From positions 4,259,507 through 4,323,506 of the forward strand of contig NZ_CP044016.1 of assembly GCF_004337365.2 (NCBI RefSeq): a DNA stretch of 64,000 nucleotides. The letters are read 5' to 3'. The notes under the pieces are model-generated. The model was not told where the DNA came from, made no database searches, and was given only the letters and a program-made list of their open reading frames with translations. The DNA is from Rhizosphaericola mali. Its GTDB lineage: Bacteria; Bacteroidota; Bacteroidia; Chitinophagales; Chitinophagaceae. Positions 13,593-52,303 of this stretch are shown piece after piece. The position numbers were made by a program, and so were the translations under genes. Positions within the stretch are counted from its first letter, which is position 1. Every line of letters begins with the position of its first letter.

Positions 13593-15311
13593 ATGAAAAA
13601 ATATATACTAATAATAGCTGCTTATTTGGTTCATATTCAAGCAGATGCACAGAAATCTATCGTTGGAAATGGATTGGAAATTGATCCATATCATTACACG
13701 AGCCAAAGAGAAGGAGTCTTTACAAATGGAACGGTGGTATGTGCACATCCATTAGCTGCTCAAGTCGGTGTTGCAATGATGAAACACGGAGGAAATGCAT
13801 TTGACGCGGCGATAGCGACTCAATTAGCCTTGGCGGTAGTATATCCTGGCGCCGGTAATATTGGCGGTGGTGGATTTATGACAGCAAGAAGAGCTGTAGA
13901 TGGTAAGACAATTACTTTAGATTTTAGAGAAAAAGCACCAGGGCATGCGAGTCGAGATATGTATTTGGATAAATCCGGAAATGCGAGTACTGAATTGTCC
14001 CAAAATGGACATTTATCCGTAGGTGTTCCCGGAACCGTCGCTGGATTATTCAAAACCTTACCATATGCAAAATTGACTTTTGCAGAATTGATCCAACCCG
14101 CTATTGATTTGGCAAAAAATGGATATGTAATTACAGAAAAAGAAGCCGACGGTTTGAATACCGATCGGGAAAATTTTATCAAATACAATACTTCCAAAGA
14201 AATAGCTTTCGTCAAACCAGAATTATGGAAAGCGGGCGATACGTTATTTCAGAAAGACCTAGCAGAAACGCTTGAACGAATCAAGAAAAATGGTCCTAAA
14301 GGTTTTTACGAAGGAAAAACTGCAGATTATATCGTAGAGGAAATGAAACGCGGTCATGGCTTGATTACGTTGGAAGATTTGAAAAAATATGAAGCGGTCG
14401 AAAGACCTCCATTGCATTTTATGTATAGAGGTTATGAAATCGTAAGTTTTCCTCCTCCAAGTAGCGGCGGTTTGCTATTGGCTCAAATGCTAAAAATGAT
14501 CGAACCATTTCCGGTAAAAGATTTTGGTTTTCATTCTGTTATGCAGATCCATTTAATGGCAGAAGCGGAGAGAAGAGCGTATGCTGATCGTGCAAAATAT
14601 ATGGGAGATCCTGATTTTTGGAAAGTGCCAGATTCTATTTTGATGAGCAATAAATATTTAATGCAAAGAATGAGCGATTTCAATCCCGATTCTGCAACGC
14701 CGTCGACCAATGTGACGGCAGGATTGATTCATCAAAGTGAAGAAACTACACATATCAGTATTTCGGATAAAGCAGGCAATATGGTTTCTATCACGACAAC
14801 TTTGAATAACCATTTCGGAAGTAAAACGGTTGCCGGAAAAGCTGGTTTCATTTTGAATGATGAAATGGATGATTTTAGTATCAAACCTGGCGTGCCTAAT
14901 TTGTATGGCGCAGTTGGGGGAGAAGCGAATGCGATTGCTGCGAATAAAAGAATGTTGAGCTCTATGGCGCCAACCTTGATTTTAAAAGATAGTAAACCTT
15001 TTGTTGTCGTAGGAACGCCAGGTGGTACGACGATTCCGACTTCTGTTTTCCAAAGTATTGTAGATGTTGTAGATTTTAATATGCCGTTGAGCGAAACGAT
15101 TAATTCGCCTAAATTTCACCATCAATGGGTTCCTGATTATTTGTATGTAGAAAAAGGATTTGCTGCGGACACATTAAGTGCATTACAAAAAATGGGATAT
15201 CAAATCAAAGAGCGTGGTCCAATTGGTCGTACAGAAATGATTGAATTTAAAGGTGGACAATTAATCTCGGCTTCGGATAAAAGAGGAGATGATAGCGTGG
15301 CGGGATATTAG
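13593..15311 (+). CDS. ggt: Gamma-glutamyltransferase (periplasmic)
   Basis: 572 residues, the normal GGT length. Residues 1-19 form a signal peptide (MKKYILIIAAYLVHIQADA), so the enzyme is exported. The N-terminal large-subunit block NAFDAAIATQLALAVVYPGA and the autoprocessing site EETTHISISD are present; Thr386 before His would be the new N-terminal nucleophile after self-cleavage. The C-terminal SSMAPTLILKD and VVGTPGGTTIPT are standard substrate-site blocks. It cleaves glutathione and other gamma-glutamyl compounds and can transfer the glutamyl group to amino acids. A degenerate -7 box (TAACTTAG, 13569-13576) precedes the ATG. No obvious operon partner. Confidence 0.95.
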   Translation: MKKYILIIAAYLVHIQADAQKSIVGNGLEIDPYHYTSQREGVFTNGTVVCAHPLAAQVGVAMMKHGGNAFDAAIATQLALAVVYPGAGNIGGGGFMTARRAVDGKTITLDFREKAPGHASRDMYLDKSGNASTELSQNGHLSVGVPGTVAGLFKTLPYAKLTFAELIQPAIDLAKNGYVITEKEADGLNTDRENFIKYNTSKEIAFVKPELWKAGDTLFQKDLAETLERIKKNGPKGFYEGKTADYIVEEMKRGHGLITLEDLKKYEAVERPPLHFMYRGYEIVSFPPPSSGGLLLAQMLKMIEPFPVKDFGFHSVMQIHLMAEAERRAYADRAKYMGDPDFWKVPDSILMSNKYLMQRMSDFNPDSATPSTNVTAGLIHQSEETTHISISDKAGNMVSITTTLNNHFGSKTVAGKAGFILNDEMDDFSIKPGVPNLYGAVGGEANAIAANKRMLSSMAPTLILKDSKPFVVVGTPGGTTIPTSVFQSIVDVVDFNMPLSETINSPKFHHQWVPDYLYVEKGFAADTLSALQKMGYQIKERGPIGRTEMIEFKGGQLISASDKRGDDSVAGY

Positions 15312-15368
15312 TTATATTTTGAAATAGGAAATTAGAAATGGGAAATGTGAGGAAATGAACTCTTTCTC

Positions 15369-15432
15369 GCGCCAGCATTAGCGAAGCGGTGCTGGTGTGC
15401 TCTTTCACACAAGTAACGTTCGTTCCTCACTA
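15369..15432 (+). repeat. Structured intergenic repeat, copy A
   Basis: A 64-nt element that recurs at 17592-17655 in the same orientation with 56 of 64 identical bases. It contains two hairpins: CCAGCA/TGCTGG (from 15372) and GTGTG/CACAC (from 15395). The wider segment 15365-15446 is bounded by inverted TCTCGCG/CGCGAGA ends, extended inward by AGCATTAG on each side. No coding potential is evident. Confidence 0.85.
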
Positions 15433-15476
15433 ATGCTTTCGCGAGATATGATAATATGTCAACAATTGTTTTGAAA

Positions 15477-16667
15477 ATGAAAAGATTATTACTGCTTGTT
15501 ATTTTCTTAGCCAATTCAATATTTTTATTTGCTCAAACTAAGAGTGATTCCGTCTATTTGTTTGAGAATAAAATATTAGAAAAATGTAAAATTGATTCTA
15601 ATTTTTACTTCAAGGGTGGATTTGCATCTTCAGATCTTGCTTTGATAGGTCTATATCAAGAGGGTTTGAAATTATACGATAGTGCACGGAGGAAAGAATC
15701 ATTTGAAGTTACTGATAGTCTCAAAACTGCACTATCTCAATTAAAAGCCATTGATCCAATTCTTTACATCCTTGAACAGGCAAAAAAAACTTCAATTATT
15801 ATATTTAACGAAGCGCATTACAATCCAAGAAATAGAGTATTTGTCGTGTCTTTATTGCACTCTTTGAAAAATATTGGATATTCTGTTTTTGCAGCGGAAA
15901 CTTTTTCAAATAAAAAGTCTTTTGGCAATATTCAACATCCATCTCTTGAAACGGGATATTATAGTGCTCAACCTCAGTTTGGAAACATGATAAGACTAGC
16001 CGTTAAATTAGGTTATAAATTATTGCCATATGAAGATACAACACTTTACAAAAGACATAGGGAAATGGAAGAGGCTACAAATATTGCGAATTTTCTGTCC
16101 AACAATCCAAATTCAAAAATAATTATCTACTGTGGATTGGATCATATTTTTGAAACTCCAATTGCTATGAATCAAAAGGATAGCCTTCATTTTATGGCAA
16201 ATATTTTAAAAAAGATGACTAAGGTTGATCCATTTACGGTGGATCAGGTTTATTTAAGAGAACGAAGCAATTTTCACTTGGAACGACCAGAACGTCAACT
16301 ACTTAATTCAGATAAGTATGCACTGTTTCAATACCCGAATGGTAAAATATTTTCCATGAAATATACGGATGTTTCCTTATATACACCAGCTACAAAAACA
16401 AAATACAATAGACCTTCTTGGATATTTGAAAATCATATGTTGCCATTATTCTTACCAATCAATAAGATAAAAATATCATTTCCAATAATGGTAAAAGTGT
16501 ATTTAAGATCTGATAATGTGAATAATGCAATCCCTATTGATGTCCTTGAAGTTAAAAATAAATTAGACTTAAATCGAACGGCATTGGCTGTATACCCAAA
16601 ATCTGATTATCAAATAGTAGTCAATAATGAAAAAAATGAAGTATGCTCATTTTACGTAGGTAATTAA
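15477..16667 (+). CDS. Secreted Tiki/ChaN/EreA-like protein of unknown function
   Basis: 396 residues from the ATG at 15477, which directly begins the signal peptide MKRLLLLVIFLANSIFLFAQ; an in-frame ATG at 15456 would put extra residues before it. I do not recognise a precise family. The core has IIIFNEAHYNPRNRVF (about residue 110), AAETF (about 139) and CGLDHIFE (about 218). This Glu/His...Glu...His spacing resembles the Tiki superfamily that includes ChaN (haem-binding), TraB and erythromycin esterase proteins; this is a distant match by eye. It is followed after 79 nt by a PKD lipoprotein, and the two genes are bracketed by repeat copies A and B. Confidence 0.65.
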   Translation: MKRLLLLVIFLANSIFLFAQTKSDSVYLFENKILEKCKIDSNFYFKGGFASSDLALIGLYQEGLKLYDSARRKESFEVTDSLKTALSQLKAIDPILYILEQAKKTSIIIFNEAHYNPRNRVFVVSLLHSLKNIGYSVFAAETFSNKKSFGNIQHPSLETGYYSAQPQFGNMIRLAVKLGYKLLPYEDTTLYKRHREMEEATNIANFLSNNPNSKIIIYCGLDHIFETPIAMNQKDSLHFMANILKKMTKVDPFTVDQVYLRERSNFHLERPERQLLNSDKYALFQYPNGKIFSMKYTDVSLYTPATKTKYNRPSWIFENHMLPLFLPINKIKISFPIMVKVYLRSDNVNNAIPIDVLEVKNKLDLNRTALAVYPKSDYQIVVNNEKNEVCSFYVGN

Positions 16668-16698
16668 AAAATGCACTTAGAATAAAAATGAGGCATTT

Positions 16699-16718
16699 AA
16701 TGTAAATAAAATTACATT
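16699..16718. terminator. Weak A+T-rich hairpin after the Tiki-like gene
   Basis: AATGTAA and TTACATT form a 7-bp stem with a 6-nt loop 31 nt after the stop at 16667. It has no G+C-rich core and no long T-run, so termination efficiency would be low. Confidence 0.3.
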
Positions 16719-16746
16719 TGTTAGACATTCACCTAATGTATAACAT

Positions 16747-17565
16747 ATGCGATCTTTTTCTACCCTCATGCTGATTGTAGTATTGGCTATATCTGCGTGT
16801 TCAAAAAATGAGAACTTAATATCTTCAAACAATCAAGACAAGGTTCGTGATTTTTCTTTTGTAAATAAGAATGGTGATATTATCGGAGATTCATTAACGT
16901 GGACAACTTATTTATCGATTTCCGTTCAAAATAATGATGATACTTCCTTATTTAATTATAAATGGAAAATAGGCGATGCGGATAATAATATATCTGACTA
17001 TACAAAAACTCCAAGTATAATTTACAATATGCCAGGAACGTATATTGTAAAAAGGTATGCATATAATAAATCGAATAATGATTTGGTTGATTCTACGTCC
17101 AGAACTGTTTTCGTAGCAAATAGAACGTTAAAAGATATAAAAATTGATCTCTTAGACTGGACGAAAGTTTTTGGAGAGGTTGATATTCCTGCCGATGCAA
17201 AAATTGATTTATTTGCAAGAATATATAAGGATGTCAAAAATTCAAATAATGATTATATTTTTAACAATGCAGAAGTTTTGATGGAGAGTGATACATTAAA
17301 AAATATAGCGAACAATACAACTAATATAATCTTTGAATCCAACAATCAACGCTCACTTTATATGAGCATCAATAACAGTTTGCATGCGTTATACGGAATT
17401 TATAATGGAAAAGTATATTTACTTGCGGCGGATTGGTTTAGTGGTATTGGAGGCAGTATGAGTGAAACGTATGGTCCAAATAACGCTTATATAACATCTA
17501 CTTATACTACCAGTACGGGCTCCGGTATTATGGCTTTTGATGGCGTTTTTGATTTCACGAAATAA
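16747..17565 (+). CDS. PKD-domain lipoprotein, unknown function
   Basis: 272 residues. The N-terminus ends in the lipobox AISAC with Cys18, so the mature protein would be a lipoprotein. Residues about 35-125 look like a PKD-type beta-sandwich: FNYKWKIGDADNN, then the typical PGTYIVKRYAYN turn and strand. The remainder is beta-rich without a recognised catalytic motif. PKD domains usually mediate glycan or protein contacts outside the cell. It shares the repeat-flanked segment with the Tiki-like gene and may be co-expressed with it (79-nt gap with only a weak hairpin). Confidence 0.7.
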   Translation: MRSFSTLMLIVVLAISACSKNENLISSNNQDKVRDFSFVNKNGDIIGDSLTWTTYLSISVQNNDDTSLFNYKWKIGDADNNISDYTKTPSIIYNMPGTYIVKRYAYNKSNNDLVDSTSRTVFVANRTLKDIKIDLLDWTKVFGEVDIPADAKIDLFARIYKDVKNSNNDYIFNNAEVLMESDTLKNIANNTTNIIFESNNQRSLYMSINNSLHALYGIYNGKVYLLAADWFSGIGGSMSETYGPNNAYITSTYTTSTGSGIMAFDGVFDFTK

Positions 17566-17591
17566 AATTTTTAATTTCTTACTTTGGCTCG

Positions 17592-17655
17592 GCGCCAGCA
17601 TTAGCGAAGCGCTGCTGGTGTTTTTTTTCACACTAGCATCGCTCGTTCCTCACTA
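17592..17655 (+). repeat. Structured intergenic repeat, copy B
   Basis: Same orientation as copy A (15369-15432), with the first 20 bases identical and 8 mismatches in 64 overall. The GTGT/ACAC hairpin is kept but its loop is a T-run. Outer ends are more degenerate than in copy A (GCGCCAGCATTAG on the left, reverse complement GCGCAAACATTAG on the right). Located between the converging PKD lipoprotein and TlpA-like genes. Confidence 0.85.
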
Positions 17656-17690
17656 AACTAATGTTTGCGCGCGATGAGAGAAAGTATGCT

Positions 17691-18854
17691 CTATTGCAAA
17701 TTATTGTCGAGGATTTTTTCTACTACGCCAATATCTGAGTTGCCGGCATATCGTACAATTCCATGAGTATCAATAAGAACAAGTTGAGGAAAACCATCAA
17801 CTCCATAGGCTTTTGTTACGATTCCCGTGACATCATATAATGTTCTATAATCGGGATTATGTTTTTTATAAAAAACATCTATGTCCTTTTTTGAATCGTA
17901 CCTATTTATCCCTATTAAATTCAATTTATTTTGATATTTTTTCATTAATTCATTCAGTTTTGGTACGGAAGCAATGCATGGACCGCAGTTCTTCATCCAA
18001 AAATCCAATAATATAACTTTACCTTTCAAATTTTTAAGTTGCAATGAGTCAGAACTATCATAAAATGGTAAGCTCCAATCCGGAGCGGAAACATTTGGCT
18101 TAATTAGCTCTAGTTTTTTCTTGGATATAATTTTAAAATCATTTGCATATGTCGAAAAATACCAAGATAATTCACCAGGAGCTGCAACGTTATTTTTAAT
18201 ATTCGAAAACGTTGTTGTCATAAAATCCTTTGGCTCTGCATCATTTTTTTGAATTACAGCAATTGGCAGATATGTGGTTTTGTCTATAATGATATGATAT
18301 AGAAAATCCCTTTTCAATGTGGTAGGTGTTGTTTCGTTTCCAAATCCGTTGAGTGTTTTATTGTGTAGAGTACAAGTAACTTCAAGATAGGATTTACCAG
18401 ATATTAGCGTATCTGTTATCCTTTTTTCAACACTGCTATCAGCAATAAATAAAGAAAGTCCGTTTCTAAGGGTGAAAAGAGAATTTACAAAAAAAGAAAG
18501 ATTTACAAATGAATTATAGTTGGGTTTGAAGGCAATCTCCATCGTCCTATCTTTTTTATCCATTAAAAAGGACTCATTTCCGTTATAAATTGTTTTATAG
18601 GCAGCCGTCTCTAATTGAAAAGTAGGGTTTAGTTGACTAAAATCAATGTAGGACGTACCTGAAAATTTATTGTGATAATCTTCCGAAGCATAATTAGTCT
18701 CACGAGAGTAATTATAACTTACTTTTCCTAAATGCTTAAGATTTTGAGACACTAATTGTAAAATACTATGGATTGATTCTGAATTTTGCCCGTAGGCATT
18801 ATTAGAAAGTATTTCAATAAGCATTAAGACAATTGGAAGAATGATCCTTTTCAT
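17691..18854 (-). CDS. TlpA-like thioredoxin-fold protein with N-terminal extension
   Basis: 387 residues with a signal peptide ending near SNNAYGQ, so periplasmic or outer-membrane facing. Residues about 30-240 are a beta-rich domain of the kind found before TlpA domains in Bacteroidetes. The C-terminal domain starts at APDWSLPFYDS and carries the redox site FWMKNCGPC (Cys-Gly-Pro-Cys, about residue 288) and the cis-Pro loop VDGFPQLVLID. Such proteins reduce disulfides in exported proteins or act in cytochrome maturation or stress defence. Thiol redox activity is well supported; partner proteins are not indicated by the neighbourhood. Confidence 0.85.
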   Translation of the reverse strand: MKRIILPIVLMLIEILSNNAYGQNSESIHSILQLVSQNLKHLGKVSYNYSRETNYASEDYHNKFSGTSYIDFSQLNPTFQLETAAYKTIYNGNESFLMDKKDRTMEIAFKPNYNSFVNLSFFVNSLFTLRNGLSLFIADSSVEKRITDTLISGKSYLEVTCTLHNKTLNGFGNETTPTTLKRDFLYHIIIDKTTYLPIAVIQKNDAEPKDFMTTTFSNIKNNVAAPGELSWYFSTYANDFKIISKKKLELIKPNVSAPDWSLPFYDSSDSLQLKNLKGKVILLDFWMKNCGPCIASVPKLNELMKKYQNKLNLIGINRYDSKKDIDVFYKKHNPDYRTLYDVTGIVTKAYGVDGFPQLVLIDTHGIVRYAGNSDIGVVEKILDNNLQ

Positions 18855-52220: not shown

Positions 52221-52230
52221 AAATAAGCTG

Positions 52231-52286
52231 AATGCAAAAAGCTCAATGCGTAATGCAATTGTATTGTGCTTTGAGCTTTTTGCATT
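52231..52286 (+). terminator. Long inverted repeat between rseP and the GT4 gene
   Basis: A perfect 16-bp stem (52231-52246 with 52271-52286; arm AATGCAAAAAGCTCAA) with a 24-nt loop that contains an inner CAAT/ATTG stem. The U-tract is within the descending arm. It starts 11 nt after the rseP stop and probably terminates transcription. Confidence 0.6.
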
Positions 52287-52303
52287 TGGCATAGAGCTGA
52301 AAT

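Follow-up and report, generated by a model that had tools for sequence, protein, structure and literature searches.

A probable low-copy family of dispersed extragenic palindromes in Rhizosphaericola mali, two copies of which bracket a pair of genes

Main finding

Two repeat copies, A and B, which flank two genes for apparently secreted proteins in the window (the whole 64,000-nucleotide stretch of DNA that was analysed), probably belong to a low-copy family of dispersed extragenic palindromes found so far in this genome only, the bracketed genes being bystanders; we put the chance of this reading at roughly three in four. Members of the family occur as doublets or as solitary half-units, are dispersed and intergenic, and are predicted to fold. 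Since the repeat is present at about a dozen chromosomal places, it looks more like palindromic DNA of the common dispersed sort than like the termini of a mobile cassette, and we regard the bracket around the two genes as coincidence or a result of local copying. The repeat-bounded cassette is thereby set aside as a false lead, and Bacteroidota gain a small palindrome family that has no tag and no detectable RAYT, a subject on which little was found in the open-access literature searched, with no description of this repeat itself.

Anatomy of the palindromes

According to the original prediction, two 64-nt copies at 15369-15432 and 17592-17655 share 56 bases in the same orientation and enclose exactly two genes. 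The identity of 56 of 64 bases was reproduced, with a longest exact run of 20, and two long open reading frames do lie between the copies (Table 1). This direct repeat is the longest in the window among the best 20 of 22 repeat families, and a search for its core, CGCCAGCATTAGCGAAGCG, that tolerated up to 3 mismatches found two occurrences in the window and none in 100 shuffles. The ends TCTCGCG and CGCGAGA attributed to copy A were located at 15365-15371 and 15440-15446. The unit size of 64 nt was wrong, the repeat being part of a larger imperfect palindrome in both copies. Elsewhere in the window, at 52224-52293, an inverted repeat of 35 nt, whose arms abut directly and are 80% complementary, occupies the gap between two open reading frames.

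Table 1. Positions of the repeat copies, their parts and the bracketed genes (window coordinates for A, B and the genes; genome positions for the other loci).
Feature	Start	End	Strand	Remarks
Copy A, doublet	15366	15445		Extent of palindrome
Copy A, S half-unit	15366	15399	+	34 nt; own hairpin CGCGCCAGCA..TGCTGGTGTG, GCGAAGC in loop
Copy A, tip	15400	15405	.	Variable, 6 nt
Copy A, L half-unit	15406	15445	-	40 nt; inverted relative to S
Tiki/ChaN/EreA-like gene	15456	16667	+	403 aa; signal-peptide-like start (by eye); putative bystander
PKD-domain lipoprotein-like gene (by eye)	16747	17565	+	272 aa; orphan; putative bystander
Copy B, doublet	17588	17671		Extent of palindrome
Copy B, S half-unit	17588	17622	+	One extra base near outer end; CC..GG stem change as in A
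Copy B, tip	17623	17628	.	All T; with S hairpin reads intrinsic-terminator-like (stem 17597-17622, then T)
Copy B, L half-unit	17629	17671	-	Inverted; carries small insertion
Doublet	252635			Weak
Doublet	3597253
Doublet	3599339
Doublet	3754066
Doublet	3879290
Lone L unit	723150
Lone L unit	738295
Lone L unit	2937100
Lone S unit	109388
Lone S unit	3135814

Local alignment of the arms divided each palindrome into a 34-nt half-unit, S, and a different one of 40 nt, L, which is inverted relative to it; the borders of both are common across copies, and the tip between them varies from 6 to 26 nt across the seven doublets. Copy A folds much more stably than shuffled sequences, with z = -5.8 as single-stranded DNA and -5.0 as RNA; the effect is smaller for copy B, with values of -2.5 as single-stranded DNA and -2.8 and -1.9 for RNA from its two strands.

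The S half-unit is predicted to be able to fold alone. Across nine S units 97.2% of the stem cells pair, a level reached by 5 of 500 shuffles, and for a longer stem that includes outer wobble pairs the figure is 93.5%, reached by none of 500. The number of stem pairs changed on both sides is unremarkable: two, as matched by 65 of 500 shuffles, or three with the outer wobble pairs (84 of 500). The compensated changes of the inner stem are A8:T29 to C:G in A and B and C11:G26 to T:A in 252635. Among DNA mini-hairpins, the motif GCGNAGC is one of unusual stability.

Pairing between S and L was compared with pairing within S: 34 of 51 changed S-L pairs are broken versus 2 of 7 within S, a difference that is not significant (p 0.09). 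The weak copy 252635 has an intact S hairpin, yet 9 of its 29 S-L pairs are broken. Within L, 10 of 42 stem pairs are broken in doublets versus 0 of 18 in lone units (p 0.025, from small numbers). The building block may well be the self-folding half-unit, used as S and L head to head in a doublet, or alone.

Distribution of the repeat

The genome-wide search proposed with the original prediction gave 12 loci in the 4.7 Mb genome, ten of them beyond A and B, a count that pools searches of different sensitivity and may miss weak copies; seven loci are doublets (one weak) and five are lone half-units. A and B and five others came from blastn, pattern searches added 109388, 3135814 and 2937100, and a covariance model added 3754066 and the weak 252635. 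Weak copies may have escaped because the model scored a limited set of candidates, namely 150 of 337 first-look candidates in this genome and, under stricter filters, 30 per listed genome in the family.

Judged by mechanical ORF calls, which also define the gene neighbours, every one of the 12 loci is intergenic: eight lie between codirectional and four between convergent genes, and none between divergent genes. Given the make-up of the window itself, finding none between divergent genes is not significant (P 0.38), and the convergent share is marginal (P 0.06). Outside the window the copies have alaS-, recR-, metH- and ribF-like genes as neighbours (by eye). An insertion linked to tRNA genes was considered and rejected: the window holds no tRNA, and a single tRNA-Leu lies about 0.6 kb from the lone unit 723150.

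The repeat was found in none of 38 other relatives by blastn and in none of 146 other family genomes by the covariance model (30 candidates per listed genome), and it had no match in phage and plasmid records or, by exact pattern, in IMG/VR. This restriction to one genome argues against a functional RNA or terminator element kept by vertical descent, as opposed to a once-mobile repeat, as do the strong decay of copies 252635 and 3597253 and the lack of any Rfam match near threshold in a search of 15000-18000. A stop codon does lie within 61 bases at 9 of the 12 loci (raw count), the sense strand of S as RNA gains a longer stem through G-U pairs, and the S hairpin and T run of copy B, 3' of the PKD gene, were scored as terminator-like, all of which would suit such an element. 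The same scan gave no site in copy A, and a terminator reading of B is weak because the region holds four such sites with 3.1 expected by shuffling. Overall we consider a conserved element of this type highly improbable.

On the reading that we prefer, of a dispersed palindrome family, A and B would probably be passive today, with at most a role at 3' ends. Copy B, which follows the PKD gene, could act there through its terminator-like hairpin and T run, and copy A as a stable hairpin between the GGT and Tiki-like genes (54 bases past the GGT stop codon and 10 bases ahead of the first ATG of the Tiki-like gene).

The genes between copies A and B

The Tiki-like protein itself had no fitting Pfam match up to an E-value of 1. 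Among the 15 members of its alignment, eight matched PF04187 (Tiki superfamily, ChaN) at E <= 1, the best at 9.4e-8, and one matched PF05139 (erythromycin esterase; 1.5e-4). With the N-E, E and H positions also well kept in the alignment, the earlier Tiki/EreA-like label is plausible. Solved structures searched with the alignment gave no match at E <= 1, and a single-sequence structure prediction had a mean pLDDT of 33.5. Of 116 other family genomes, 18 gave a match to the gene, nearly full-length in three of them (41-46%), and a second, distant relative lies in the same genome at 1215324.

The second gene shows a weak PKD match below the Pfam cut-off. It has no full-length relative among 146 other family genomes, and partial matches in 21 of these are weak and lie around the PKD part (best 27.9 bits). 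PHROGs and PADLOC returned nothing useful.

Neither gene was matched in the single same-genus genome (G001, 81% complete). A clean empty site could not be read there because the GGT gene stops about 240 bases short of a contig end, while NadE is carried, among different neighbours, by another contig.

The two genes had been thought to form a segment that could be inserted or deleted through recombination between its flanking direct repeats, a proposal that found no support: the repeat also occurs elsewhere, no PKD neighbour stands beside the Tiki-like gene in the stretches fetched from its three best relatives, the PKD gene is an orphan, and no duplication longer than 2 bases flanks the copies. 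Movement of the pair as a cassette is quite unlikely in our estimation. It would agree with the direct orientation of A and B, with the CC..GG stem change that they have in common, with the poor conservation of both genes, and with a fall in GC content from 0.394 in the GGT gene before A to 0.302 and 0.314 in the Tiki-like and PKD genes. The pair of copies 3597253 and 3599339 also brackets two genes over about 2 kb, though inverted. Against this, GC content steps at A and not at B, the thioredoxin-like gene that follows B being at the same level (0.316); no PKD neighbour lies in the 11-13 kb stretches fetched around the three best Tiki-like relatives; at eight other loci the repeat stands singly; and integrase and transposase are absent from the two genes of the segment. 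Repeats that match at 88%, with a longest run of 20 nt and 2.2 kb apart, would be a weak substrate for recombination. The hundreds of unrelated sites that the original prediction had set against a cassette did not appear (there are about 12), and a relative that has both genes was not found either.

Paired copies and local copying

Two pairs of copies, A with B and 3597253 with 3599339, lie no more than 2.3 kb apart. When 12 loci were placed at random 100,000 times, evenly across the chromosome rather than over intergenic space, 6.5% of the placings gave one such pair or more and 0.19% gave two or more (P 0.0019, for a distance chosen after the data had been seen). Two close pairs thus exceed what random dispersal would produce, a point that sits less well with a simply dispersed family.

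The S stems of A and B have C..G in place of A..T (the CC..GG change), which is found in none of the seven other S units. Since this compensated change is private to A and B, B most likely was copied locally from A, or A from B. The L units of A and B are not each other's closest. The simplest account of the two copies is that one was copied locally from the other, or that their S halves underwent conversion. Local copying, if real, would bear on how such repeats spread.

The second pair is inverted, with 2.1 kb between its copies (L015 3257-5421), and encloses one gene of DUF6438 together with a small one that has no family, beside an alaS-like gene (by eye); the remaining eight of the ten other loci are single. 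Five relatives were searched and matched for this locus and four were read, G009 being left out; in G001, G010, G002 and G111 the two genes do not stand beside the alaS-like gene. The comparison decides little because other neighbours differ too in those four genomes.

Possible origin of the family

Past mobility is what we infer from the dispersal by itself. The doublets could owe their spread to an enzyme, today missing or unrecognised, that copied single-stranded or hairpin DNA.

Alternatively, the doublets could be MITEs of a cut-and-paste transposase, with the half-units as terminal inverted repeats (CTCGCGCAAGC-type ends), an origin to which we give little chance. The inverted ends CTCGCG/CGCGAG would be as expected, and some copies have neighbours that make the arms look like the ends of something larger: lone L units 2937100 and 723150 and doublet 3754066 adjoin a second dispersed repeat, and lone S unit 109388 adjoins a weaker resemblance to it. 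However, in all seven doublets the longest flanking match is 2 bases, no better than in random flanks, so no target site duplication was found, and the internal hairpin of S is well kept, which terminal repeats would not need. The transposases searched were those of the Y1 type, and a donor element of another type may exist.

The second dispersed repeat is roughly 190 nt long, with the head AAAAGAAACAAAAGATCAAGGCTGT and a body containing inverted GAATATA/TATATTC stretches (by eye); it lies at L173 2350-2645, L017 3650-3960 and L165 1700-2170, and the window gave no match to its head. The linker and hairpin after lone S 109388 (L019 2600-2911) weakly resemble those after lone L 2937100. Lone arms may be the ends of a larger mosaic.

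A further reading, which we hold to be unlikely, is a Bacteroidota REP-like family of a new make, spread without a RAYT, whose two half-units differ and lack a tag; an unknown hairpin-processing enzyme would copy it, preferentially to nearby sites, and so bracket accessory genes pairwise. The S unit would there be built around a small hairpin with a GCGNAGC-type loop.

Comparison with known repeat systems

The original prediction had likened the ends of copy A to those of small non-autonomous mobile elements or REP-type palindromes and saw the two copies as bracketing a segment. The likeness to REPs holds insofar as the half-units are inverted, hairpin-forming, dispersed and intergenic; the bracketed segment was not supported. 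The layout known from REPs, BIMEs and REPINs, of short palindromic half-units in inverted pairs, extragenic and dispersed (as described in excerpts from PMC3116915, PMC3733652, PMC8266576 and PMC2817692), is present here. Inverted doublets, lone units and a placing near 3' ends also appear for REPs in the excerpts from PMC3116915 and PMC3733652.

Three other features of REPs were sought. The GTAG, GTGG or CGTC tag or its complements are absent from six of the seven doublets, and in 3599339 GTGG occurs twice, in the L arm and at the tip rather than at the hairpin foot (positions by eye). The RAYT model NF047646 had no match in this genome at E <= 1; in a control it matched in 8 of 14 genomes, above the cut-off in one. 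PF01797 (Y1_Tnp) had one match, a short IS200-type gene (L021 1429-1776) that lies 82 kb from the nearest listed copy and has no half-unit beside it. The gene matches the model's final part, starting near position 30, and a relaxase-like gene adjoins it (by eye). The copy number is not that of a high-copy REP, with 12 loci found and weaker ones perhaps missed.

The attC sites of integrons are likewise structured, imperfect palindromes beside genes. They differ in their RYYYAAC/GTTRRRY boxes, which are absent from all seven doublets, 15 bases on either side included, and attC identity was rejected.

In the excerpted text of PMC6006769, Bacteroidetes RAYTs of subclass 2.6 adjoin atypical secondary structures, further copies of which occur at other places in the genome. 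No such RAYT gene was found in this genome; the likeness, by description only, is in the phylum and in the unusual structures.

The REPINs of Pseudomonas fluorescens resemble the present family in having lone half-units as well as doublets able to form a single long hairpin (PMC3116915, in excerpt). They differ in that here the copy number is low, no RAYT was found, and the stems of lone L units are better kept than those of doublets, the reverse of what that excerpt would lead one to expect.

BIMEs, with the Y and Z REP units of Escherichia coli, have in common with the doublets unlike half-units of 29-40 nt, inverted around a variable linker, an intergenic placing, and units that also occur singly; by contrast, the present family has 12 loci, against about six hundred REPs, and no GTAG tag or RAYT gene was found (comparison with the part of PMC8266576 on these elements). 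Since tag, transposase and copy number fail but the layout resembles that of BIMEs and REPINs, we class the family as orphan REP-like, and as ordinary in kind.
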